34,130 nt of DNA from Nitrospirota bacterium (GTDB taxonomy: Bacteria > JACPQY01): assembly GCA_016190245.1 (NCBI GenBank), contig JACPQY010000069.1:1-34130 (forward strand). The letters run 5' to 3'. Made by a program: the position numbers and the translations under genes. Each line of letters begins with the position of its first letter. Position 1 is the stretch's first letter. This document shows, piece by piece, positions 744 through 14,361 of this stretch. The notes below the pieces were generated by a model. It was not told the DNA's origin. It worked only from the letters and a program-made list of their open reading frames with translations, and ran no database searches.

Positions 744-2687
744 TCAATGCTCCGAGACCGCCTGTTGGGCACCCGGATAGAGCTCGCGGAACAGGAGGCG
801 TGAGACCGCGCGGGAGAGCATCCCGCGTGTTTCATCGGGCAGGCCCTCGAACTGGACACCGGCGTTGTAGCCAGACCCGTCCTCCCCCGCGGGGCGACAC
901 CAGACCACTCTGGAATCCGCCCGCAGGAGCGTCGGTCCCGTTCCCGTCGCGGGCCCAATCTCCAAGTCCACCCTGGCCCCCGGTTCGAGGATCTCCTTCA
1001 CGCTCAGGGCGGCCCCGCCGACCGAGATGTCCTGAAGCACCGCCTGCCGCACGGACGGCTCGGGCGGGATCCCGTAGCGCACGCCCATGGTCATGCGGCA
1101 GCGCAGGGCGCTCCTTCGCTCCTGGTAGTAATACACCCGATTGCGTCCGCGGCGTTTGGCCTCGACCATGGCGCGTTCGGCGTGTCGCACCAGTTGGCTT
1201 GCGTGCATGATTTTCGACGAGGGGAAAGAGGCCACTCCGAGCGAAACCGTGAGCCGGATCCGCCGCCCGGCCGCGTCGAACTCGTGCGACGCCACCCGCG
1301 CGCGAATCCGCTCGGCTAGCATGGAGGCCCCTTCGAGCGTCGTTTCCGGAAGGATCGCGGCGAATTCCTCCCCTCCGTACCTGCCCACGACATCCACTTC
1401 CCGCACCGCCTCGCGCACCACTCCGGCCAGCTCCCGCAGGAGAGCCTCTCCCACGCCATGCCCATAGGTGTCGTTGACGCGCTTGAAGTAGTCGATGTCG
1501 AGCAGCACGCACGAAAGCGGGCGCGCGTAGCGCAGAGAGCGCAAGAGTTCGAGGTGCAGCCGCAGGAAGAGCTGCTTGTGATTGAGGAGCCCCGTGCCGG
1601 GATCCAAGGTCGAGATGGAGCGGACTTTTTCGTACAGGCGTGAGTAGGAGACCGCGAAGGCGATCGCCGGCTCCACAGCATCGGTCGCGCGGACATCCAC
1701 ACCCTCGAACTTCCCCTCGTCCGCGTTGGCGAGGTTGAGGACGCCGACGACCTCTCCCGCCACCTTGAGCGGGGCTAGAAGGGCCTCGTCGTGCAGGTAC
1801 TTGGGGCGTATCTCACCGCCCCTGCGGGCGCGGGCTCCACGCAGCAAGAGGGTTGACTCTCGGCCCAGCGCCTCCACCATCAGCCCCGCCGAGGCCGGGG
1901 CGAGGACGAGACCGTCCGGGAGATCGGAGTGGTTGTGCACGAACAACTCGAGTTGGCCCGAATCCGGATCGCGGAGGAAGATCGAGAAGAGGCGGCTGCG
2001 GAGGGCTGACGGCAACTCTTTCCGAAACAGCTCCCGGAGTTCGCGGGGGTCGGCACGATGGACGTGTTCGCGGAAAGCCGCCGCGCGCTCCGTGATCGAG
2101 GGTTCTTCCGGGTGGGCGTCACCGGCCTCCGGCCTCTCCGGGGCGATTTCGAGCGGTGTGGGGCGCGCAGCGCCCTGTGCAACGCCGACCCCCTCAACGC
2201 CCCGTTCCACAACAGTTTCGCGATGGTCCTCAGAGGCCGCGAGTGGCTCCGAGACGGGATGCGAGACCTCATGACCACCCTTGGCCCTGCGCAGGGCGGC
2301 GCGCAGGGCGGCCCCGAACATCACGGGGTGAATCGGCTTGAGGAGCACCAAATCCGCCCCCATGTCCAGACAGCGGGCATGATACTGCGGCGACCGCTCC
2401 GAGGTGAGGACGATCATCGGCAGGCGGGCCATCTCCCCCCCAACACGGAAATGACGAAGCGTCTTCAGGTCCTCCTGATGGCCCTCCATTGGTTCCACCA
2501 CGAGGACGTCGGCCGCTCCGGGAACGGTTGCCGGATTCCCCGCTTCCGACGGCGACTGCCCGGCCCAGCGGTAGCCGAGGCCGTTGAGCAGATCGCCCAC
2601 CCTCTGGTCGCGGCCGAGGTAGAAAACGAGCGGGCCTGCCGCGGCTGGACGAGTCTTCGATCCTCCGAGGTCACTCTCAGCGGTCAC
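744..2687 (-). CDS. Diguanylate cyclase: receiver-like, GAF, GGDEF and PilZ domains
   Basis: Predicted 647-residue cytoplasmic enzyme that makes cyclic di-GMP from two GTP. In order: a receiver-like domain (about 18-135), a Pro/Glu-rich linker, a GAF-type sensor domain (about 205-355), a GGDEF domain (about 360-522) with an intact GGEEF at 438-442, and a C-terminal PilZ domain (about 524-640, DISVGG at 553-558). An RxxD inhibitory site (R429-D432) precedes GGEEF by the usual five residues, so product inhibition is likely. The receiver has Glu65 where the phospho-accepting Asp is expected (VVEP), so it may not be phosphorylated; the conserved Lys117 is kept. The GTG start at 2687 is chosen because AGGAGGT lies five bases upstream; a longer frame to 2837 has no such site. 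It lies 273 nt downstream of the response regulator on the same strand and may share its transcript. Confidence 0.9.
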   Translation of the reverse strand: MTAESDLGGSKTRPAAAGPLVFYLGRDQRVGDLLNGLGYRWAGQSPSEAGNPATVPGAADVLVVEPMEGHQEDLKTLRHFRVGGEMARLPMIVLTSERSPQYHARCLDMGADLVLLKPIHPVMFGAALRAALRRAKGGHEVSHPVSEPLAASEDHRETVVERGVEGVGVAQGAARPTPLEIAPERPEAGDAHPEEPSITERAAAFREHVHRADPRELRELFRKELPSALRSRLFSIFLRDPDSGQLELFVHNHSDLPDGLVLAPASAGLMVEALGRESTLLLRGARARRGGEIRPKYLHDEALLAPLKVAGEVVGVLNLANADEGKFEGVDVRATDAVEPAIAFAVSYSRLYEKVRSISTLDPGTGLLNHKQLFLRLHLELLRSLRYARPLSCVLLDIDYFKRVNDTYGHGVGEALLRELAGVVREAVREVDVVGRYGGEEFAAILPETTLEGASMLAERIRARVASHEFDAAGRRIRLTVSLGVASFPSSKIMHASQLVRHAERAMVEAKRRGRNRVYYYQERRSALRCRMTMGVRYGIPPEPSVRQAVLQDISVGGAALSVKEILEPGARVDLEIGPATGTGPTLLRADSRVVWCRPAGEDGSGYNAGVQFEGLPDETRGMLSRAVSRLLFRELYPGAQQAVSEH

Positions 2688-2960
2688 AATCCACCTCCTG
2701 TGAATGGCACGCGGGGCAACGGCCCCGTGCATGGCCTCGAACCGCATTCGAGACTGCATGCGGGGCACGGCCTCGGGCCCGGTCCGAGACGACCCGGCCC
2801 GAGGCGCAGTGAAGTTCAGGTTGCGTGGCCCCAGCACCGGGGCGGATCAGGGAGTGGCGGGCTACGGTAGCCTTGCCTGACGGCCCGGGGTGCACAGAAC
2901 CGCCGCAACCTTCCGAACCGGCTTTGGGGCCGGCCCAGAGACTTTTTCCTGGCTTCATGT

Positions 2961-4049
2961 TCAACTCAGCTTTCCGAGGCTACGCAGAACTTCCTCGGAC
3001 TCGCAGGGTTTCGCGAGGACGGCACGGGCCCCCAGACGCAACGCCTGGATCGCCGCCGTGCCCATCGCACCGATGGTCGAGACCATGATGACCTTCGCCT
3101 CGGGGTCGTGGTCGAGGATCACTTTGAGCGCTTGGAGGCCGCTCATCACCGGCATGAGGATGTCCATCAGGACGACGTCCGGCTGCAGGGCCTTGTAGAG
3201 GCGGACGGCTTCAGCCCCGTTGAGCGCCTGGCCGACCACCTCGTACTGCCCGGTCTCCTCAACGATCTTGCGGAGCCGGAGGATGGCCGTGCCGCTGTCG
3301 TCCACCACCAGAACTTTCCGGGGGGCGGGGACGGCGGCAGGGATGGCCTTGGCGGGTGCGAGGTGCGGACGTTCGGCGGGTCGCGCCACGACGCCGTTGC
3401 TCCCTCGCACCGATCCTGCTCCTACCGATCCAGAAGCCTTGATCATGCGGGCGGACGCTTTTTTCCTGATCTCCGAAAGGAACGCGGCCAATGCGTCGGG
3501 GGCCGCTGCAGAGCCGAGTGCATGGTCCCGAGTCGCATTCGGGTTTTCGTGCGGGACCCCGGTCCGGACTTGCCTGGTCCCATGCGCCTCCACCGGTGCC
3601 CGAACCGCCGGCGCCGCAGCATCCGGCTCCGCTTCCACCCCCGCGCCCCGGCGACGCCGCAGGGCTGCCCGCACGGTGGAAATGAACTCGACGCGGTGGA
3701 CGGGCTTGGTCAGCACCTGGTCGGCTCCCATGTCCAGCCACTTGGCTCGATATCTAGGAGAGGTGATGTGAGTCAAGACGACGACCTGCGGGGCCTTGGA
3801 AGTGTGTCTCTTGAGGCCGGTCAACCACCTCAGATCCACTTTCCGTTGCTCGGACTCGTCGAGCACAATGAGGTCGGGTGCCTCCTCACCACCGTGATCG
3901 TCCGATCCATCGGTGTCCGCGGGCGGTCGGCTGATCACTCTCCCGAACCCGGCCAGCACCCCACCCAGCGTGGGGTCCGTCCCCACGTAGAGCACTCGTG
4001 TCGAGTCCGCCATCATGTCTTGCTCCAAACCGTCGAATTGTGTCTCCAT
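2961..4049 (-). CDS. Double-receiver response regulator
   Basis: A 362-residue protein with two receiver domains and no DNA-binding or enzymatic output. The first (about 17-135) is receiver-like with Asp64 (VLDES) and Lys115. It is clearly related to the N-terminal domain of the neighbouring diguanylate cyclase: both share an LDMGAD segment followed by a K-P-[IV]-H motif and a basic R-A-A-L-R-R end. A low-complexity linker (about 136-243) leads to a canonical CheY/CheB-like receiver (245-362) with the acidic pair at 250-251, phospho-acceptor Asp296 (LMDILMP) and Lys347. The ATG at 4049 has a strong purine Shine-Dalgarno (GGGGGGAGGG) a few bases upstream, which excludes the longer frame to 4160. 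Two tandem ECF-type promoters lie about 250 and 440 nt upstream on the same strand. It probably relays phosphate or binds a partner; the partner kinase is not in the window. Confidence 0.88.
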   Translation of the reverse strand: METQFDGLEQDMMADSTRVLYVGTDPTLGGVLAGFGRVISRPPADTDGSDDHGGEEAPDLIVLDESEQRKVDLRWLTGLKRHTSKAPQVVVLTHITSPRYRAKWLDMGADQVLTKPVHRVEFISTVRAALRRRRGAGVEAEPDAAAPAVRAPVEAHGTRQVRTGVPHENPNATRDHALGSAAAPDALAAFLSEIRKKASARMIKASGSVGAGSVRGSNGVVARPAERPHLAPAKAIPAAVPAPRKVLVVDDSGTAILRLRKIVEETGQYEVVGQALNGAEAVRLYKALQPDVVLMDILMPVMSGLQALKVILDHDPEAKVIMVSTIGAMGTAAIQALRLGARAVLAKPCESEEVLRSLGKLS

Positions 4050-4189: not shown

Positions 4190-4301
4190 CAAGTCCTTCT
4201 CCCCACCCTCAGAGGGCGGCGGAACATCGGGCACACCCCCACTGTGTCCCTCGGGGTCTGCTTCCGTTGCTGCTGTTTCCAAAATCATGCCTCTCTTAAG
4301 A

Positions 4302-4330
4302 TTAGACTCCTGAGAAGGTCGTTTTGTTCC
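4302..4330 (-). promoter_or_regulatory. ECF-type promoter, proximal copy
   Basis: On the minus strand GGAAC (4330-4326), an 18-nt spacer and GTCTAA (4307-4302) match the RpoE/ECF promoter form (GGAAC -35, TCTAA -10). The spacer itself is nearly identical to the copies at 4493-4521 and 14207-14235. It points at the response-regulator gene, with a predicted transcription start near 4295. Confidence 0.75.
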
Positions 4331-4492
4331 AAACACCCCCAAGAATCTGATCGCGGACACTTCTGGCCCTTTGTCCGAGGCTGCGTGTGCGGCATTTTGG
4401 CGCTGGATGGCTATTTCCAGCCAATCGAAGGACTGGCCGGCCTCTTGTTTTCTGACTGCGTTCGTTCTCATGAATATGGTCCCCTATTAATA

Positions 4493-4521
4493 TTAGACTC
4501 CTGAGAAGGCCGTTTTGTTCC
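4493..4521 (-). promoter_or_regulatory. ECF-type promoter, distal copy
   Basis: GGAAC (4521-4517), an 18-nt spacer and GTCTAA (4498-4493) on the minus strand. It is 191 bp upstream of the proximal copy in the same orientation, making a tandem pair for the response-regulator and diguanylate cyclase genes. Confidence 0.72.
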
Positions 4522-4541
4522 AAAGGAGTGGCGGATCGGTG

Positions 4542-4801: not shown

Positions 4802-7800
4802 CTACTGGCCGCCGGTGGTGGTCTTCAGGATCGCCCCGGCATCACCGACGATGAATCCGGTGGTTCCTCCACCGGGGAAGACGACGGAGTACAGGGTGAC
4901 ATTCGCCCGGTTCGCCTGCGAGAACCACGTGCTTCCGCCATCGGTCGTCTTGAGCACAGTGCCGTTTCCGCCCACCGTGTATCCTGTCAGCTCATCGGGC
5001 AGGAAACGGATACCGATCAAGCTGTAGCCTGTCCCCGAGGTCTGTGGGGTCCAGTTCGATCCTCCGTTTATCGTCTTGAAGATCTGGCCGCTGTTGCCGG
5101 CAAGGAAGCCGAGCGTGGCCGATTTTGGGAAATGAATGCCATTGATCGAGGCCCCGCTGTTGTCCAAGTTGAGCGGCTGGGTCTGGGTCCACGATCCCCC
5201 GCCATTGGTCGTCTTGAAGACGTAGGCACGAGAGATCACGTAGCCCGTGGACGAATCCGTCGGGAAGCTCTGGCCGACGTACTCGTTACCCACAGGGATA
5301 GAGCCGCCATTCTGCCCCTGGCCCGGTACGGCCCCACCTCCGCCCCCCCCCGCAGTGGGCCCCATGTTTGTCCAACTGGCCCCGCCATTCCCTGTCTTCA
5401 GGACGTTGCCCCCACCGCCGCAGACGTAGCCCGTGGTTGCGTCCTGCGGGAAGCGCACCCCCGTGAGCGTCTGGGTGGTCCCGGAGTTCAGCGCACTCCA
5501 AGAGGCACCCGAGTCCGAGGTCTTCAGAATCGTGCCGCTTGTTCCGACGGCGAAGCCCGTGGACCCATCGTTCGGGAACTGGATGGAGAGGAGCATGGCG
5601 GTTGTGGTGGAGTTCGCGCTCGACCACGTGGCGCCCCCATCGGTGGTCTTGAGGATCGTGCCGAGGTCTCCAGCGGCGAAACCGGTCATCCCATCGGCGA
5701 AGAAATAGGCCGCCTTCAGGTTGGTGGTGGACCCGCCCGCCAGAGAGGTCCAAGTCGTGCCGCCGTCCGTGGTTCTCTGGACGGCTCCGCCCCAGCCGAC
5801 GAGGTACCCTGTGTCGGCCCCACCTGGGAAGTCGACATCCAGGAACGGAGCCGTCGTGCCGGTAGGCTGTCGCGTCCACGTTTGGCCTCCATCCACGGTC
5901 TTGTAGGCGGTCCCCATGTCGCCCACCACGAATCCCGCGGTCGTGTCCGAAGGGAACTCCATGGCCGTGAGGCTGTAGTTAAGTGAGGTCGAAACGGTCC
6001 AGATCGTCCACGTCGCCCCTCCGTCTGTGGTCTTGAGGACCTTTCCTCCGAGAGTCAAGACGTATCCTGTGGTCGTATCCAATGGGAAAGAAAGGTCCGT
6101 CAGGTCCTCGGTGGTTCCCAAGAACGTCGTGGGAGTGGCCCACGTGGTGCCGCCATCGGTGGTCTTGAGAAGGGTTCCGTTGCCGCCGACGATGAATCCT
6201 GTCGAGCCTCCACCGGGAAACTCTATCCGACGGATGGTTTTGCTCGTCCCCGACGTGACCGCGCCCCAGGTCGCTCCTCCGTCGGACGTCTTGAGGATCA
6301 CGCCGGATGTTCCTGTGGCGAACCCCGTGGTGGCGTCCGAGGGGAATTCCACGTCCCCCAGGGCGGCCATCGTTGGCGTTGTGAGCTTCGTCCACGTAAT
6401 CCCGCCGTCCGTGGTCTTGAGGATGGTGCCCGCCCCGCCCACGACGAAGCCGGTGGTGGTATCCAGCGGGAAGTCAATGGCACTGAGGTTCTCGGCCACG
6501 CCTGAGGACAGACAGATCCAGGTGGCTCCCCCGTCATCGGTTTTCATGATCAGGCCGCCATCTCCCACTGCGAAACCGACCGACCCGAGGAACTGGACCT
6601 CGCGGATGGCAAATACGGTGGGGACACGCTGGATCAGGGTCCACCCCCCGGCAGGGCAGCTCCCCGGCCTTGCCGACACCTCCGCGGACGCCGCACTCCG
6701 GTTGCCCAACTCGTCCACCGCCCGAACGGCGAAATAGTAGGGGATGACCACCTCCAAGCCGCTCAGCGTCTGTGCCAGAACACCCGCTCCGGTCGATTGG
6801 GAAACCGCGAACTGGGATGTGCACTGGCCGGACGTTTTCGACCAGCAGAGCTCGTAGGTGAGCATCGAGGGCGGCGATCGGTTGTCTTTGCCAGGGGACC
6901 ACTGGAGATGGACGCGGTCGATCCCCGCGGCCGTGGCGAGGAGAATGGACCCGATGCTCGGCCCGGTTCGATCTATCGTCCACGTGAAGGCTGCGGGGGT
7001 CTCGTCCACGTTGTCCGAGGGGTCTATCGCCCGGACGGAGAAGGTGTGCGGGCCGTCGAAGAGCCCTGTGTAGGCGACGGGGGACACGCACGGGGTGAAG
7101 GCCTGGGCGTCGAGCTGGCATTCGAACGAGCAGCCCACCTCGTCGCAATCCAGAATGAAGCTGACGTCATTCAGGGTGATGACGGCCCCGGTGGAGAGTG
7201 GCGCCGAGGCCGAGAGGGCGGTGAGGAACGTTTCAGGGTCCCGAAGGTCAATGGGAAACTCGCTCGGGGAGCGGAGGACGCTCGAGATCCTGATCTCGTC
7301 CATCCAGCCGCTGAAGACGGCCGGGTCGTTTTGCGGCGTGGCCCTGCGACCGATCCGGAGCGGGCCTGCGGCCGCCACCGCGCCCACCAGATCCAGCGGG
7401 ATCGCCGCCTGCGCCTGTTGAACACCGTCCTGGTAGAGGCGGATGGAGAGGTCGGTCGGATCGTAGGTGAAGGCGATGTGGGTCCATTTCTCCAGAGGCA
7501 GGGGAGTGCTCCCCTCCGCGCCGGCGGCCAACTCGGCGATCCCACCGGCCCGCACCTCAGCCCTGAGCTCCAGCGTTTCGGCCTGCTCCACCCAGACGTC
7601 AACCTCGAACCGGCCCGTCTCGGAAGCCTTGTTGTGACGCCTCGAAAAGATGGGCTGTACGGACTGAGTTGGGTCGGCGGCCAAGCGGACCCACGCCTCG
7701 AGAGTCAGAGAGTTGGAACCCGCGAAGGGGCTTGGAACGGAATCGGCAATCTCGATGAAATCGTCCTGCCCGTCGAAGCGACGCGCCGGGCCGAACCTTC

Positions 7801-8320
7801 CGCCCTCTTCCGGCTGAGGGCCGGCGATCGCGCCATCGGGGAGACCCGGCTTGCACTCGTTGGCGGCCACGTAGCCAGTGTCCTCGTCCAGGTGATAGAG
7901 ACCCAGCGTGTTGGCGTCGCACTGGCCGGGGTTGGTGAAGGGCCTTTTGGTGGCGGTGACGACCACCTTGTCCTCGGGGCTGTCGCATCGGCCGTCGGTC
8001 ACCTTCAAGGCGAAAACGTAGCGCCCTTCGACGTCCGGAATGAGGCCCACGCGGCTCCCGTCCGCGTCGTCAATGGCCGCGGTGCTCCCTTCCGGCTTGG
8101 TCAGGAGAGACCACTTGTAGGCAATGGGGTCCCCGTTGCGATCCGAGCTGTGCCCGGCATCGAGTTCGTTGATCTCGCCCACCTGCGCAAAACGGTCCTC
8201 CCCAGCGTTGGCTGCCGGGCACAGGTTCTTCTTTTCGAAATCGAGGCCACAGGCAGAGGAAAGTACCGCGACGGCCGCGCCGATCACCCTCACCCGGTCT
8301 TTCCGCCGGCAGGCGGACAA
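4802..8320 (-). CDS. Large lipoprotein with PKD-like, LamG, FN3 and YCF48 repeats
   Basis: About 1172 residues, predicted exported and lipid-anchored. A basic start (CRRKDRVR) and hydrophobic VIGAAVAVL lead to Cys24 in LSSAC. Then come a PKD/cadherin-like domain (about 30-125), a LamG/concanavalin-like domain (about 140-350), FN3-like segments (to about 560), and 14 YCF48/BNR-type repeats of roughly 42 residues with the pattern GF-VG--GTILKTTDGGATW. Fourteen could make two seven-bladed propellers. The last repeat stops at TTTGGQ, before the usual Trp. The start is uncertain: TTG at 8320 has GGGAGAGG nine bases upstream, and the frame is open to 8434, but the upstream part is repeat DNA. It lies 151 nt after the caspase gene on the same strand and may be the last gene of the sigma operon. 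Surface adhesion or binding is a guess; YCF48 proteins in phototrophs assist photosystem assembly, which is not implied here. Confidence 0.8.
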   Translation of the reverse strand: MSACRRKDRVRVIGAAVAVLSSACGLDFEKKNLCPAANAGEDRFAQVGEINELDAGHSSDRNGDPIAYKWSLLTKPEGSTAAIDDADGSRVGLIPDVEGRYVFALKVTDGRCDSPEDKVVVTATKRPFTNPGQCDANTLGLYHLDEDTGYVAANECKPGLPDGAIAGPQPEEGGRFGPARRFDGQDDFIEIADSVPSPFAGSNSLTLEAWVRLAADPTQSVQPIFSRRHNKASETGRFEVDVWVEQAETLELRAEVRAGGIAELAAGAEGSTPLPLEKWTHIAFTYDPTDLSIRLYQDGVQQAQAAIPLDLVGAVAAAGPLRIGRRATPQNDPAVFSGWMDEIRISSVLRSPSEFPIDLRDPETFLTALSASAPLSTGAVITLNDVSFILDCDEVGCSFECQLDAQAFTPCVSPVAYTGLFDGPHTFSVRAIDPSDNVDETPAAFTWTIDRTGPSIGSILLATAAGIDRVHLQWSPGKDNRSPPSMLTYELCWSKTSGQCTSQFAVSQSTGAGVLAQTLSGLEVVIPYYFAVRAVDELGNRSAASAEVSARPGSCPAGGWTLIQRVPTVFAIREVQFLGSVGFAVGDGGLIMKTDDGGATWICLSSGVAENLSAIDFPLDTTTGFVVGGAGTILKTTDGGITWTKLTTPTMAALGDVEFPSDATTGFATGTSGVILKTSDGGATWGAVTSGTSKTIRRIEFPGGGSTGFIVGGNGTLLKTTDGGTTWATPTTFLGTTEDLTDLSFPLDTTTGYVLTLGGKVLKTTDGGATWTIWTVSTSLNYSLTAMEFPSDTTAGFVVGDMGTAYKTVDGGQTWTRQPTGTTAPFLDVDFPGGADTGYLVGWGGAVQRTTDGGTTWTSLAGGSTTNLKAAYFFADGMTGFAAGDLGTILKTTDGGATWSSANSTTTAMLLSIQFPNDGSTGFAVGTSGTILKTSDSGASWSALNSGTTQTLTGVRFPQDATTGYVCGGGGNVLKTGNGGASWTNMGPTAGGGGGGAVPGQGQNGGSIPVGNEYVGQSFPTDSSTGYVISRAYVFKTTNGGGSWTQTQPLNLDNSGASINGIHFPKSATLGFLAGNSGQIFKTINGGSNWTPQTSGTGYSLIGIRFLPDELTGYTVGGNGTVLKTTDGGSTWFSQANRANVTLYSVVFPGGGTTGFIVGDAGAILKTTTGGQ

Positions 8321-8326
8321 GCTGAC

Positions 8327-8396
8327 CACCCTCTCCCATACGCGGGACCTGCCCGTCCGTCCGCCGTGGCGGACTGGACAGGCGGGGAGGACTGGG
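8327..8396. repeat. GC-rich palindromic repeat, copy 2
   Basis: An inverted-repeat element centred on CCGTCCGCCGTGGCGGAC, with outer CACCCT and GGGGTGA arms. It is the reverse complement of the element at 20010-20083 and related to the core at 651-686. It occupies the gap between the caspase gene and the YCF48-repeat gene and appears to supply the latter's Shine-Dalgarno. Confidence 0.75.
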
Positions 8397-8471: not shown

Positions 8472-9986
8472 TCAGCGGTTGAGCTGGAGCGTCACACCCC
8501 AGCCATCCCGGCCCGCGGGCCCCCACCCGAGATCCATCCCCTGCGGCAGCGCAGGGAACGGATCGTGCGTGAACCACAGGTAGGTCCCGAGACCCATCGT
8601 CAAAGCGGACACCCCTCCTCCGATGAGGCTCATCTTGCGAATTTCCGAGTAGTCCTGCCGCGCGGCAGACACGTCTTCGTCCGTGTACAGATCCCGTCGC
8701 GCGAGATCGTTGTAGGAGACGCCGTAGTACCCCGCGGAACCGACCAGACCCGCAAGCCCCGTGCCGAACAGTGACCTGCCCCAGAAGGCGCGGTCCCACC
8801 GCGGGTACCTGAACCGCGGCCCGAACCCGAACCAGAGCGTCTCAGACTCCCCGTCGTGGATCTTGAGCAGGCGGTCGTACGTTTCGCCGTCCTCGCGCCG
8901 CGCGACCACGCTGTACGACCCTTCACGCACGACCCGTGTGTAGGTCTTCTCATCCGCGGTGGACACCCAGACCGAGCGGCCGTTGAGGAAAAGCTCCACG
9001 TCGGGCATGTTGACTTCCACGCTGATTTTTCCGGAGGGGGACGAGCGCAGGATGAGGTCGCCCGCTCCGGGCGCCATGGCCAGGACGATTTCGCCCCGCA
9101 TCGCGCCCCACAGGACGGGGTGCTGACTCCCCCCCCGCCGGCGGGAGTGGCCAACGACGCGGTCATAGACATAGTCGTAGATTTCCTGCACCGTGATTCG
9201 CCCGTCCGCATCCTGGTCCGCTTCACCCCGCATCCCGCGCAGGAGATAGTGGGTGAAAAGCCCATGGCCCGTCTCGGGCAGCTCGATGGCAACCTCGTTT
9301 GAGTCCGAGGAGGTCACCACCACCCTCCCCTCGCCTTGCGCGATGTCGCGCATGAACTCGCGTGAGATGTTGAGGGCTCGTTCGGTCGGTCCGTTGTAGA
9401 ACGTACGGCCGCCCGCCACGCCGCTGTAGCAGGCGTCCGCGAGCAGGACGAGCCGTTTGGACGGGATGCGCGCGAAGATGCGGTTGAGATCCGCCATGGG
9501 GATCGCGGTCGAGAACAGGTCATCCGGATCCGCATCGTGGGGCACGATGTACTTGGTGAAGCCGTCAATGGACGTGCTGGTGGGATCGATCTCGGGCGCC
9601 CCGTGCCCGGCGTAGTAGATAATGACCGTGTCATCCTCGCCCGCATTGCGGGAGAGCCATGTCCCCAGCGCGGCGAGAACCGCCCCGCGGGTCGCCTCCT
9701 CATCCACGAGGACCTTGAGGTTGGACTCGGGAATGCCTCCCGCGAACGGATCCGAGAGGAGCTTCGCAAACGAACGCGCGTCCTCGGCGGCGAAGCGAAG
9801 CTCAGGAATACGAGGATCCTTGTACCGCCCGACGCCGATTACGACGGCGAATCGCTCGCCGACGGCATAGCTTGATCCCGCCAGTACGAACGTGCTCAGG
9901 AGGAGCGCGGCCGGCAGACTGACAAACAGACCCGCCCGCCACGAGGCCCTCCGAGCAGTGCTGCGAGTGCCACTCAGTCCCGTCAT
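8472..9986 (-). CDS. Exported caspase-like (C14) protease with EF-hand loop and PEGA-like domain
   Basis: Clan CD cysteine protease of 504 residues. A basic, then hydrophobic N-terminus (about 8-40) is a signal peptide or membrane anchor. The p20-like caspase domain (about 44-250) has catalytic His128 (YYAGHG) and Cys186 (DACYSG). A canonical 12-residue EF-hand loop, DQDADGRITVQE (257-268), follows, then a PEGA-like beta domain (about 320-385) and two C-terminal hydrophobic segments (about 400-425 and 455-475). Relatives cut after Arg/Lys or Asp; specificity here is unknown. The calcium loop suggests calcium control, as in metacaspases. Its ATG overlaps the stop of the CHAT gene (TGATG), so the two are probably translationally coupled. 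It is probably active in the periplasm or at the membrane. Confidence 0.9.
   Translation of the reverse strand: MTGLSGTRSTARRASWRAGLFVSLPAALLLSTFVLAGSSYAVGERFAVVIGVGRYKDPRIPELRFAAEDARSFAKLLSDPFAGGIPESNLKVLVDEEATRGAVLAALGTWLSRNAGEDDTVIIYYAGHGAPEIDPTSTSIDGFTKYIVPHDADPDDLFSTAIPMADLNRIFARIPSKRLVLLADACYSGVAGGRTFYNGPTERALNISREFMRDIAQGEGRVVVTSSDSNEVAIELPETGHGLFTHYLLRGMRGEADQDADGRITVQEIYDYVYDRVVGHSRRRGGSQHPVLWGAMRGEIVLAMAPGAGDLILRSSPSGKISVEVNMPDVELFLNGRSVWVSTADEKTYTRVVREGSYSVVARREDGETYDRLLKIHDGESETLWFGFGPRFRYPRWDRAFWGRSLFGTGLAGLVGSAGYYGVSYNDLARRDLYTDEDVSAARQDYSEIRKMSLIGGGVSALTMGLGTYLWFTHDPFPALPQGMDLGWGPAGRDGWGVTLQLNR
9183..9218 (-). other. EF-hand calcium-binding loop in the caspase
   Basis: Codes for DQDADGRITVQE, with Asp at loop positions 1, 3 and 5, Gly at 6, Ile at 8 and Glu at 12. 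This is the full canonical calcium-ligand pattern, placed about 70 residues after the catalytic Cys. Confidence 0.8.
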
Positions 9987-12454
9987 CACCGCCAGTCGCC
10001 GACCAGAATCATACTCGCCCAGAAAAAAGGATGGGACCTCAACTCGGACACTCTTACCGTCCCCCTTAAGGCGATCTCATCCTGATCGCGCTTAGCGGTG
10101 GTGATAACACGTTTTTGCGGGTTTGTCAAGTCCTTTTGCGCGCCCCTGAGAGCGGCCGCGCGCGACTCACCATTATTGATGCGCTCGAAAAAACCGGCCA
10201 CGACCTCGGGGGTGACTTGGTCCGGGACACGCCAGAGCGTCCCCACGACCGTGCGGACACCGGCTTGAAGGAATCCGCGCGCGAGACTCACCCATTCGTC
10301 GCCTCGCCCGAGATCCGCTCCGCTGGGACCGGTTCCCAGCGCCGTCTGACAGCCGCTCATGACGACGAGATCCGGCTTGAGGCGGAGGCCGAACAGGTCG
10401 GCCACCGTGAGCTTCCCCTCTTCCCCCGGACCTGATGCCAGATACATGGGGCTGTCGAGCGGCGAATCGGGCAGGAGTTCCGCGTGCGCGGAGATGAGCA
10501 GCGCATCGGCTTGATCGGCCATGGCTAGCAGTCGGCCCCGAGAAGCGGACTCCCCTACCAGAACATCGGCCTTGCGGAAGTGCCGCGCCACCGCGCGCAC
10601 CTCGGCCTCGGATTGCGGGAGGGGCGGCCGGTCGGTCTTGGGATTGCCCAACGCCAGAAGGCGGTTCAGCGGACGGGGCTTGCCTTCCAGATACAGCGGG
10701 AGCGCCGAGGCGGAAGGGAGATAGGAGACGGACCATCGCTCCACGAGGTAGCGTCCCTCCGAGTCCACGAGGGCGGCAAAAGGCAGGTAGTACAGTTCGC
10801 GGGTGGGCACGATGACGAGGTGAGAGGCCGGGCCGATCGCGCCCTCGAGCGGGGCCACCAGCGCGGCGTAGAGCTGTTCGAGCACCTTCACGTAGGCTCT
10901 GCCTTGAAGCGTCTCGAGGGATACATCTTCGACGACGTCCGCCCTGAATCGGCGGATTTGCGCGCCGAGGGCCAAGGGCGCCTCGGGCAGTTCAACCCGC
11001 ACCCATCGTTCCGGGGTCACCACGTAGGCCACCGAACGTCCGCCCATCTGGGCGTATTCGATCAGAGCCGTTTTGGGAGGCAGGTGGGCCCGCACTTGAT
11101 CCGGCGAGAGGACGGGCACCGACTCGGCCGACAGGGCCGGTCGGGCGTCGCGTGGAGCCGCCTTCAGCCTGGGACGGGCCGCGCCCTCACCCGAGTCAAA
11201 GGCGGCGTACACCAATCCGTACGAAAGGCCTTCAGGCTCGTCAAGCGGATCGGATTCCCGCTGCACGGCGCTGGTAGCGGGGGCGGTCGCGGAGCCGGCG
11301 CCGTAGAGAACATCGAGGAGCGTTCGCGCCCGGCCCCGCTCGAGGAAGGCGAAGCTTTCGTCGAATCGGCCTTGTTTGGCGGCCAGCGCGGCTCCGCTTT
11401 CATAGACCTTGTGCTTGTCGTCGTGGAACCGGATTTTGTTGGAGGGCAGGAGGAGGCTCATGCGGAGACGATCCACCTCGCCGGCGGCGCGCCCATAGGC
11501 AGCCATCGCGCCCTCGGCATCGCCCACGGCCTCCAGGATCCCGGCCAGGACGTAGGCGGCGCGCCAGCACAGGTCCGGGTCGGCCTCTCTGGCGCGGACA
11601 CCGGCTTCCACGCCGGTGGCGATCTGGAGGGCCCGCTCCGTCCGGCCCATCACGAGGTAGTCTTCCGCCAGGTTGATGCTGATGGCGTCCCTGAGATCGG
11701 CATCGCCCTGCTCCGCGCGGTCGAGCGCCTTGAGGTGATCGCGGACGGCGCGTGTGGCTTGGCCCCGGGCCTTGGCCAGCTCGCCCAGGTTGTTGTGAAG
11801 GATCGCGAGAGTGGGCGGGTGATCGAGCCGCCCCGCGAGCTCGAGGGCGGCGAGTTGCGCGCGCTCGGCAGTGGGATGGTCTCCCATGGAGAAGGCGCTG
11901 ATGCCGAGCACGATGAGCGAATCGAGAGCGCCTCGCCGTTCTTCGAGTTTGTCGTAGCCCGCCAGGGCCAACTCCGCCGAGCGGCGCGAGGCTGGATAGT
12001 CGGCCAATCGGACATAGGCGAGCGAGAGTCCGAGACGGGCGTCGGACTCGCCCCGCGCGCTGGAAAACTCCCGGGCCAGTTCCAAGGCCGTGGTGAAGTG
12101 GTCCACAGCCTGTTCATGGCGGCCAAGATCCAACGAGGCGGCACCCATCGCCGTCTGAAGGCCCCACGGGCTGGGTCCGGACTCGACCAGTTGCTTCTTC
12201 GAGGCGAGGAGGATCTCGCGTTCAGAAGAGGGGGCGGCCTCCCGCTTCCGCTCTTCCTCGATCCGCCGCTCCATCTCGATGTAGGCCCTTTTCCAGGTAT
12301 CGAGCGCACCCGTGCGGTCCCCTTTTTCGTAGAGCTTCAGTCCCTCGCGGTAGAGGGAGTCCGCGGTCTTTGCGTCCGCCCGGGCAAGAATCGGAACGGG
12401 AAGCCCGAGCACCAGACCCAGACCCAGCGTGAGCACCCGCCGCATCGGTTTCAT
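9986..12454 (-). CDS. Exported TPR-CHAT protease
   Basis: An 822-residue protein with a signal peptide (MKPMRRVLTLGLGLVLG then ARADA, about 1-27), TPR-type helical repeats (about 30-380) and a C-terminal CHAT domain (about 520-820). The CHAT catalytic pair is His657 (ISAHAEL) and Cys702 (MSGCQTALG), followed by the typical conserved GTLWRVPD. CHAT proteases share the caspase/separase fold (clan CD); some are triggered by partner binding to their TPR arm. The start at 12454 is supported by GAGG five bases upstream and by the signal peptide; the frame stays open to 12691 but overlaps the anti-sigma gene. It lies 34 nt after the anti-sigma gene and overlaps the caspase gene. The export signal is notable because well-studied CHAT proteases such as Craspase act in the cytoplasm. 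Confidence 0.9.
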   Translation of the reverse strand: MKPMRRVLTLGLGLVLGLPVPILARADAKTADSLYREGLKLYEKGDRTGALDTWKRAYIEMERRIEEERKREAAPSSEREILLASKKQLVESGPSPWGLQTAMGAASLDLGRHEQAVDHFTTALELAREFSSARGESDARLGLSLAYVRLADYPASRRSAELALAGYDKLEERRGALDSLIVLGISAFSMGDHPTAERAQLAALELAGRLDHPPTLAILHNNLGELAKARGQATRAVRDHLKALDRAEQGDADLRDAISINLAEDYLVMGRTERALQIATGVEAGVRAREADPDLCWRAAYVLAGILEAVGDAEGAMAAYGRAAGEVDRLRMSLLLPSNKIRFHDDKHKVYESGAALAAKQGRFDESFAFLERGRARTLLDVLYGAGSATAPATSAVQRESDPLDEPEGLSYGLVYAAFDSGEGAARPRLKAAPRDARPALSAESVPVLSPDQVRAHLPPKTALIEYAQMGGRSVAYVVTPERWVRVELPEAPLALGAQIRRFRADVVEDVSLETLQGRAYVKVLEQLYAALVAPLEGAIGPASHLVIVPTRELYYLPFAALVDSEGRYLVERWSVSYLPSASALPLYLEGKPRPLNRLLALGNPKTDRPPLPQSEAEVRAVARHFRKADVLVGESASRGRLLAMADQADALLISAHAELLPDSPLDSPMYLASGPGEEGKLTVADLFGLRLKPDLVVMSGCQTALGTGPSGADLGRGDEWVSLARGFLQAGVRTVVGTLWRVPDQVTPEVVAGFFERINNGESRAAALRGAQKDLTNPQKRVITTAKRDQDEIALRGTVRVSELRSHPFFWASMILVGDWR

Positions 12455-12488
12455 TGTGACCTCGGCATTCTTTCTACACTCACCCCCC

Positions 12489-13328
12489 CTACTTCGCCGC
12501 GGCGGCCTCGATCGCCGACTCGGCCGCTTTGCGAACGGCACGCGACAGAGCCTCGGGAGTTGACGTCCATTCCTGCGTTTCGGCCAGAACCGCACCCGAG
12601 CGATCCACCACCCGGGCGGATACCCGGTACCGCGTTGGGCCATCGATTCGGACAATCGGGAGAAGGAACCGGGACTCCTCACGCCCTGCAAGCATGGCTT
12701 GGACGGAGGCGGCGTCGGGTTCCTGCCCGAACCAAGGGGCGGCGCCAGGGGACTGCATGGAGGCCATCTTCATCGCGTGGATGGCCTGCTCGACCTCCAG
12801 CCGCACCCGGTCGCGGTCCGATGGAGAGTCGCCGCCGCGCAGGACGATGGTAGTTTCCTCGATGACCGGCGGCAGGGACGCCACCACGGAGGGACCGGAC
12901 GGGCCGGTGCCGCGCCGGAGCATCTCACCCGCGGCGAGCGCCACGAGCAAGACGGCCACGGCCGCGCCCACATGCACAGGCGTAGCGAAGGCACGTGCCT
13001 GCTCGGTCAACTCCGCCCACCGGCGCCGAGCCCACGCCACCAGGCCGCCCTCCGCCCGATCGCGGGCGCGCTGGAGAATCGCATCCGGATCCAAGGCCAC
13101 GGGCGCGGCGGCCTCGCGCGACAGCAACCCCTGTTCGAGGCGCTTCTCCATTCCATCAAGGACCAGATGCGTGGCCGCCAGCCGGATGAACTCAGCGTCG
13201 CGCCGGCAGGGATCGCATCCTTTCAAGTGCAACTCGACCCGCCGCCGCTCAGTGGCGGCAAGGGCGTTCTCGACGTAGGCCAGCAAGGCCTCCGTGGGAT
13301 GTTCGGTGGAGGGAGAATTGGCGGTCAT
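12489..13328 (-). CDS. Membrane zinc-finger anti-sigma factor
   Basis: A 279-residue protein with an N-terminal anti-sigma zinc finger, H34-x3-C38-x2-C41, within a helical domain (about 8-60). A single transmembrane helix (about 118-135) and a C-terminal domain of about 140 residues follow, the last predicted periplasmic. It should bind and hold the sigma factor encoded just upstream. Its start overlaps the sigma stop (ATGA), and a strong AAGGAGG Shine-Dalgarno lies within the sigma gene's last codons. The C-terminal domain (strand-rich, with TRYRVSARVVDRSG) is not one I recognise. It may sense a signal or be cut to free the sigma factor, which the two exported proteases nearby make attractive but unproven. 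Confidence 0.85.
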   Translation of the reverse strand: MTANSPSTEHPTEALLAYVENALAATERRRVELHLKGCDPCRRDAEFIRLAATHLVLDGMEKRLEQGLLSREAAAPVALDPDAILQRARDRAEGGLVAWARRRWAELTEQARAFATPVHVGAAVAVLLVALAAGEMLRRGTGPSGPSVVASLPPVIEETTIVLRGGDSPSDRDRVRLEVEQAIHAMKMASMQSPGAAPWFGQEPDAASVQAMLAGREESRFLLPIVRIDGPTRYRVSARVVDRSGAVLAETQEWTSTPEALSRAVRKAAESAIEAAAAK

Positions 13329-14068
13329 GGTTTTTCCTCCTTGTTAGGTGGGGGCGACTCACGCATTGCGGCCTCGGGCTGCTCAGGAGGCCCCGGAGGG
13401 ACGGGCTGGCCCTCCTCCCGGCCTTGGTAGTCCTTGAGCAGACTCCGCAACTCGATGAGTGCGCGATAAAGCGTTGAAGACACCGTACCCGTTGGAATGT
13501 CGAGTTCCTTCGAGATTTCTTCGTAACTGAGTTGCCCGTAGAACCTCAACTCGACGACCTGCCGATAGAAGGGATTCAACCGGCCGACGCAGCGGAGAAC
13601 GTCGTTCTTCAGGTCCTCTCGAAGCTCGTCAAACTGAAGGTCCGCGAGAGGTTCGAACAGTTCGGTCCGCTCGATGTTCTTCGAACCGCCGTCATGGGCG
13701 GTGCGCAGGCGTTCGTGACGGGCATAGCTGGAGCAGGTGTTGAGGACCACGGCCAAGACAAACGTGTCGAGGCGGCTCCGGAAATCGAAATACCGCAGGC
13801 TGTCAAAGAGACGCATGAAGACCTCTTGGGCCATGTCCTCGAAGTGCGAGTTCGCTACACCCCACCGGTTCCACGTGACCATCTGCCGGATCTTGGGCCA
13901 ATACCGTTTCAGAAAGGCATCCCAAGCATCCCGACGCCCTTCGACACAGCCCCGCACGAGCTCGCGCTCGTCCGCCTCCCCGAACCGCACACCCCAAGAT
14001 AAAGCACGCCAAGGCGGCAAAGTCAAAACCGGGAGGGCAAGGGTGGCATTCATGGCCACGGTTCCCAT
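13325..14068 (-). CDS. ECF (extracytoplasmic function) sigma factor
   Basis: RNA polymerase sigma-70-family factor of about 247 residues with region 2 (about 48-122, including FEDMAQEVFMRLF) and region 4 (about 163-213, including LSYEEISKELDIPTGTVSSTL, the -35-binding helix-turn-helix). A short acidic linker joins them and a Pro-rich tail follows. It is longer than the usual 160-200 residues at both ends. The start is uncertain: ATG at 14068 and 14053 and GTG at 14137 are in frame with no clear Shine-Dalgarno. The next gene is its anti-sigma factor, overlapping by 4 nt. A promoter of the ECF type lies upstream at 14207-14235, which is the usual autoregulation arrangement, and two near-identical promoters lie upstream of the response-regulator gene. 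Confidence 0.9.
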   Translation of the reverse strand: MGTVAMNATLALPVLTLPPWRALSWGVRFGEADERELVRGCVEGRRDAWDAFLKRYWPKIRQMVTWNRWGVANSHFEDMAQEVFMRLFDSLRYFDFRSRLDTFVLAVVLNTCSSYARHERLRTAHDGGSKNIERTELFEPLADLQFDELREDLKNDVLRCVGRLNPFYRQVVELRFYGQLSYEEISKELDIPTGTVSSTLYRALIELRSLLKDYQGREEGQPVPPGPPEQPEAAMRESPPPNKEEKP

Positions 14069-14206
14069 CCGTCGGCCGCGGTGCCACACGATCTTGCAGC
14101 CCCATCGGACGCGGGAACGCAATCCCACCAGATCCACAGGATCTCGCCGGGGTCTACTCTGGCGTCCCTTGCATCCATCCTCACGGAAATTGGCCTCATA
14201 AATAGA

Positions 14207-14235
14207 TTAGACTCCTGAGAGTGTCGTTTTGTTCC
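14207..14235 (-). promoter_or_regulatory. ECF-type promoter of the sigma operon
   Basis: On the minus strand GGAAC (14235-14231), an 18-nt spacer and GTCTAA (14212-14207). The block TTTGGAACAAAACG, then TCTCAGGA and GTCTAAT, is shared with the two copies near 4300-4520. The predicted transcription start is near 14200, about 130 nt before the sigma start. This is very probably the autoregulated promoter. Confidence 0.8.
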
Positions 14236-14361
14236 AAACCCTCTCAGTTCACCCATGAAAAGGGAGAGAAACATCAAAAAAACGGCGTTTTCGTGCTCGA
14301 CGCGCCATTTTGGCGTGGCGAAAGGAGGGAATTCGAGGTGGGCCGTATTGGAACAGGTCTT

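Follow-up and report, generated by a model that had tools for sequence, protein, structure and literature searches.

In Myxococcus xanthus, the ECF factor DdvS has DdvA as its anti-sigma; the promoter that depends on DdvS is that of ddvS itself (PddvS), which requires DdvS, and DdvS is active once DdvA is inactivated (PMC4374960). In the type III-E CRISPR system Craspase, the TPR-CHAT protein Csx29 cleaves Csx30, relieving the inhibition of an ECF sigma factor (PMC10028731). The genomic context of ECF54 sigma factors includes conserved CHAT, subtilase and carboxypeptidase genes, and proteolytic control has been proposed for this group (PMC8999054). ECF genes also occur in many EACC2-caspase loci (PMC8195603).

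The locus considered here lies in a stretch of 34,130 nucleotides (the window), which is contig C53 of a 3.29-Mb genome (G000) that is 85% complete. Four minus-strand genes follow one another in overlapping or adjacent order. Their products are, in turn, an ECF sigma factor, an anti-sigma with a zinc finger and a membrane segment, a TPR-CHAT protein and a C14 caspase; a fifth gene lies 142 nt downstream on the same strand.

13325..14137, minus strand: ECF sigma factor, 270 aa from GTG, shorter from internal starts; Pfam Sigma70_r4_2 8.1e-14, Sigma70_r2 3.4e-6; TIGR02937 4.2e-25
12489..13328, minus strand: zinc-finger membrane anti-sigma, 279 aa; zf-HC2 4e-8; one TM near residues 111-138
9986..12454, minus strand: TPR-CHAT protein, 822 aa; CHAT 1.1e-63 plus TPRs (Pfam); predicted signal peptide; dyad H657/C702
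8472..9989 (GTG start) or 8472..9986 (ATG start), minus strand: C14 caspase-like protease, about 505 aa; Peptidase_C14 (PF00656) 5.4e-16, 59 bits; predicted signal peptide; dyad H128/C186 (Met numbering)
4802..8329, minus strand: large lipoprotein-like surface protein with PKD and YCF48/BNR-type repeats (Pfam)

The initial annotation of this DNA had the coordinates and order of the first four genes right, and all four products have Pfam matches; given this support and the overlapping order typical of an operon, chance is not an issue. The spacing that it described is also there: the sigma and anti-sigma genes overlap by 4 nt (ATGA), the CHAT and caspase genes overlap by 4 nt (GTGA; TGATG if the caspase starts at ATG), and 34 nt separate the two pairs. 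No minus-strand terminator-like site was found by a scan between the caspase gene and the surface-protein gene, which is a possible fifth member of the operon. The sigma factor has sigma2 and sigma4 domains and lacks sigma3 (Pfam, NCBIfam); its candidate starts are at 14137 (GTG), 14068 (ATG) and 14053 (ATG), with conservation beginning near 13990. In the anti-sigma, the zinc motif Hx3Cx2C is H34-x3-C38-x2-C41, and all three residues are invariant across ten aligned anti-sigmas. Its periplasmic part comprises about 140 residues and was modelled by AF2 with low confidence (pLDDT 64); a search for its fold gave no confident match, the best Foldseek hit (E 1.5e-3) being to unrelated beta-sandwich proteins.

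Both proteases belong to clan CD and keep their His/Cys pair, as had been claimed, and both have the predicted export signals attributed to them, here judged by eye from the sequence: MKPMRRVLTLGLGLVLGLPVPILARADA/KT for the CHAT protein and ...LPAALLLSTFVLAGSSYA/VG for the caspase, the slash marking the predicted cleavage. In the CHAT protein of the window (9986-12454), residue 653, where HxATH has its first His, is a Leu. His fills this position in 99% of aligned CHATs; it is also missing from the Craspase TPR-CHAT chains in the PDB. Modelled by AF2 (pLDDT 83, pTM 0.83), the mature TPR-CHAT protein matches the structures of Craspase Csx29, Myxococcus DdvA and separase; Csx29 and DdvA are its closest relatives of solved structure, and the superposition of the model on DdvA residues 404-991 gives a Foldseek E of 7e-16 (Z 22.9, 569 residues, rmsd 5.0). 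The DdvA entry 8ROT, annotated as a CHAT domain-containing protein, was also found by sequence profile searches; against the Csx29 model NF041237 the protein scores 37 bits, where the cut-off is 300. DdvA is apparently the fused form of an arrangement that is split here. The caspase matches metacaspase structures by sequence, has weak Ig-like matches in its C-terminal region, and scores 121.3 bits against the EACC1-associated caspase model NF047832, under the 140-bit cut-off. What the sequence supports is an operon for envelope signalling that includes two clan-CD proteases, both potentially active and predicted to be exported.

The explanation that we favour, tentatively, is an autoregulated trans-envelope ECF sigma/anti-sigma operon in which the exported TPR-CHAT protein is the periplasmic partner of the anti-sigma, as in a split version of DdvA, and the caspase has been recruited as an extra exported protease. 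At rest, the zinc-finger domain of the anti-sigma would keep the sigma factor at the membrane, as expected from its family, and family resemblance likewise suggests that both proteases are exported. CHAT would be engaged by an envelope signal, which is probably a protein or peptide that the TPR superhelix binds, and may then cut or otherwise disable the periplasmic domain of the anti-sigma, by analogy with Csx29-Csx30 and with the DdvA fusion. The initial annotation had suggested such a cut as one possibility, without drawing on these two precedents. Once free, the sigma factor would transcribe about a dozen loci besides its own operon from predicted TTGGAAC...GTCTAAT promoters, and the output would be more of both proteases together with surface proteins and proteins of c-di-GMP signalling. 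The caspase probably serves either as an output or as a second protease that cuts substrates in the envelope.

The predicted promoter is represented three times in the window, and two of the predicted regulon genes lie there as well.

14206..14237, minus strand: promoter-like motif, copy 1, TTGGAACAAAAC-N6-CTCAGGAGTCTAAT, ECF-type, upstream of the sigma gene
4492..4523, minus strand: promoter-like motif, copy 2, upstream of the receiver-domain and GAF-GGDEF-PilZ genes
4301..4332, minus strand: promoter-like motif, copy 3, from the same motif search
2961..4049, minus strand: predicted regulon gene, two response-regulator receiver domains (Response_reg 2.9e-30, two stretches)
744..2723, minus strand: predicted regulon gene, GAF-GGDEF-PilZ with a weak N-terminal receiver-like match (GGDEF 5.3e-41, PilZ 1.7e-13)

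Copy 1 reads TTGGAACAAAACGACACTCTCAGGAGTCTAAT (32 nt), contains an ECF-like GGAAC / GTCTAA pair and lies 69 nt upstream of the earliest candidate start of the sigma gene; copies 2 and 3 stand in tandem, about 190 nt apart. A generic GGAAC-N17-20-TCTAA pattern has 13 matches in the genome, 12 of which are the same extended motif. At up to three mismatches, the extended motif has 15 sites (the one upstream of sigma and 14 others), compared with none for a reversed-pattern control and none in a genome of the same family (G001). Across all 15 sites 22 columns are identical, a variable stretch of five lies within the spacer, and the flanks are alike only at random level (25-27%), so the motif is not part of a longer repeated element. 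None of the sites overlaps a called gene, though 85% of the sampled sequence is coding, a placement with a probability of about 5e-13 if sites were independent and randomly placed. Among the sigma genes found (RpoD-like, FliA-like and two further ECFs), none other than that of this operon has the motif upstream. An RNA element was considered as the source of the motif and set aside, the only RNA found in the window being a tRNA. The same promoter was also sought at other ECF-CHAT loci, where 2 of 61 had it against 0.65 expected, which is nothing to build on. On this evidence we predict that the motif is a promoter which drives autoregulation of the sigma operon and its regulon. Two considerations count against the favoured explanation at this point: ECF promoters do not usually have so strongly conserved a spacer, and both promoter function and the assignment to this sigma factor are read from the sequence of one 85%-complete genome.

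The genes downstream of motif sites include the double-receiver protein, two GAF-GGDEF-PilZ proteins, an SBBP-repeat protein, large Ig-like/RCC1-like proteins, an acyl-carrier/enoyl-CoA-like gene set, and weak TrbC-like and TraE-like matches. The first genes often begin 100-500 nt past the motif, which makes some assignments uncertain; the predicted regulon would include c-di-GMP signalling and surface proteins. Three motif loci (L273, L276 and L269, on contigs C79, C31 and C63 of the same genome) have the weak TrbC/VirB2- and TraE-like matches along with related large exported proteins, and possibly encode a type IV secretion-like surface apparatus. An Ig-like module shared by a neighbouring 1175-aa protein and two regulon members was discarded as a sign of coherence, having 50 matches across many genes of the genome.

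Within its own lineage the operon stands apart. G001 was the one genome of the same family compared, the remaining comparison genomes sharing only the domain. It has caspases and no CHAT; its closest match to the sigma factor shows 28% identity, and its anti-sigma match is a 20-bit zinc-finger hit only. With CHAT, sigma and anti-sigma all lacking there, the operon is not a family trait. The source genome has one CHAT gene and three caspase matches. A second caspase of the source genome (L128:4658-8993) and one of G001 (L130:7298-11621) share a similar gene set, in which the upstream protein resembles, by eye, a CHASE2-type membrane protein.

We surveyed 180 CHAT loci of other genomes, comprising a sample of 80 of the nearest among the GTDB matches listed and 100 from diverse genomes, with simple purpose-built HMMs and regular expressions, so that all counts are approximate. 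The initial annotation had proposed a gene-neighbourhood search for the four genes together; in the search the full set proved unconserved elsewhere, which by the annotation's own test speaks against the set as a whole being a conserved system. Within 3 kb of CHAT, an ECF gene occurred at 58 of the 180 loci, a caspase at four and both at none (among the matches listed). ECF genes numbered 1.4-1.8 per 10 kb at up to 1 kb from CHAT and 0-0.3 beyond 3 kb, an enrichment of about tenfold. When the two genes were co-directional (n=34), sigma was upstream in 25 pairs; a TM-bearing ORF lay between them in 14 of these 25, seven of the 14 with a zinc-finger motif, and the periplasmic parts of the in-between proteins were TPR-like or beta-sandwich-like by eye. 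No relatives of the periplasmic domain of our anti-sigma were present in the survey, which counts against the favoured explanation. So does the history of the sigma factor, considered as a subfamily co-evolving with CHAT: none of its 20 nearest relatives has a CHAT gene within about 6 kb, so that clear co-evolution is not indicated. A viral origin was rejected, CHAT relatives in viral contigs numbering only three.

The core of ECF sigma, anti-sigma and TPR-CHAT thus recurs across many bacterial lineages and is related to known systems; as far as could be seen, the caspase has joined this three-gene module only here. CHAT-caspase pairing also arises independently of ECF, with same-strand adjacent genes and no ECF nearby at L202:3-9927 and L150:662-14139. 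At another locus (L192:2649-6907, plus strand), zinc finger, TM and TPR-CHAT are fused in a single protein, whose gene overlaps that of an ECF sigma factor, an arrangement like that of DdvA.

Nearly as likely as the favoured explanation is that the proteases are outputs of the system and take no part in its regulation: the sigma pair would answer an unrelated envelope signal, with CHAT and caspase processing or degrading exported and surface proteins. Both protease genes follow sigma within one transcription unit, which places them under its promoter, and the predicted regulon contains large surface proteins. A signal-peptide-like N-terminus, moreover, is equally common in CHATs without a linked ECF (87/138) and in those with one (35/59). 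CHAT export is therefore common by this sequence criterion and not specific to ECF linkage, and with 122 of 197 surveyed ORFs carrying such an N-terminus overall, an exported TPR-CHAT is not out of the ordinary. Regulatory coupling is suggested, on the other hand, by the enrichment of ECF genes beside CHAT, by the fused anti-sigma-CHAT architecture, and by the precedent of Csx29, Csx30 and their sigma factor.

It is conceivable, if improbable, that the CHAT protein works without proteolysis, as a TPR sensor or scaffold which, as DdvA does in cis, binds directly to the anti-sigma and leaves it uncut, DdvA being an anti-sigma with a CHAT-like region. In two ECF-linked CHATs (L158:1605-4586 and L177:3643-6864) the catalytic His is replaced by Tyr and the Cys is kept, so catalysis is not essential everywhere, a further point against the favoured explanation; the two loci have similar anti-sigmas, whose periplasmic part is beta-sandwich-like. 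Against this reading, the dyad is intact both in the present CHAT protein and in 57 of the 59 CHATs linked to an ECF gene. Least probable of all is a defence or programmed-death module whose proteases, once triggered, would act against an invader or leave the cell dead or disabled, like Craspase or EACC-type caspases: the caspase does resemble EACC1-associated and PADLOC caspase models, and ECF genes occur in EACC2 neighbourhoods (PMC8195603), but the predicted signal peptides would place both proteases outside the cytoplasm, none of the neighbouring called genes was recognised by eye as belonging to CRISPR or another defence system, and the CHAT protein has no strong PADLOC match.

Coming back to CHAT as the partner of the anti-sigma, about one third of sampled bacterial CHAT loci adjoin an ECF sigma gene; an anti-sigma often lies in between, and most of these ECF-linked CHATs keep their dyad. 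If CHAT does control the anti-sigma, this would provide a function for a large caspase/separase-fold protease family known mainly from Craspase, hint at the origin of the sigma branch of Craspase, and bear on the signal sensed by DdvS/DdvA. With promoter and regulon predicted, the idea lends itself to a reporter test. A bolder version, which we consider unlikely though worth stating, is that ECF, anti-sigma and TPR-CHAT form a class of signalling by periplasmic proteases that is widespread and has gone unrecognised, in which CHAT would be the regulated site-1 protease of its anti-sigma, DdvA the fused form, and Craspase (Csx29-Csx30-CASP-sigma) an RNA-triggered cytoplasmic offshoot; the caspase added here would make a two-protease relay with positive feedback.

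In the open literature, which leaves out most subscription papers, we found no description of an ECF-anti-sigma-TPR-CHAT operon; linkage of ECF and CHAT had been noted before for ECF54 (PMC8999054), as had ECF genes near EACC2-caspase loci (PMC8195603). The likeness to ECF54 is one of gene context, with a CHAT gene beside an ECF sigma factor; ECF54 is described as lacking an anti-sigma (PMC8999054), whereas the present operon has one. With the EACC1/EACC2 systems the operon shares a C14 caspase of the same broad type, although its model score is below the cut-off and no EACC gene was recognised here; in the portion of their description available to us (PMC8195603), those systems are not presented as sigma/anti-sigma operons with exported proteases. 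As in Craspase, a TPR-CHAT protease is found beside an ECF sigma factor and its inhibitor. Unlike in Craspase, the CHAT protein is predicted to be exported, the inhibitor is a membrane zinc-finger anti-sigma instead of Csx30, and an RNA trigger is not expected; neither a CRISPR effector (Cas7-11) nor another CRISPR gene was recognised by eye among the window's called genes. DdvS/DdvA (PDB 8ROT, 8RW5) likewise joins an ECF sigma factor and a membrane anti-sigma to a TPR-CHAT-like region; in contrast to DdvA, which is one polypeptide, anti-sigma and CHAT are here the products of two genes, the CHAT protein carries a separate predicted signal peptide, and the operon has a caspase in addition.
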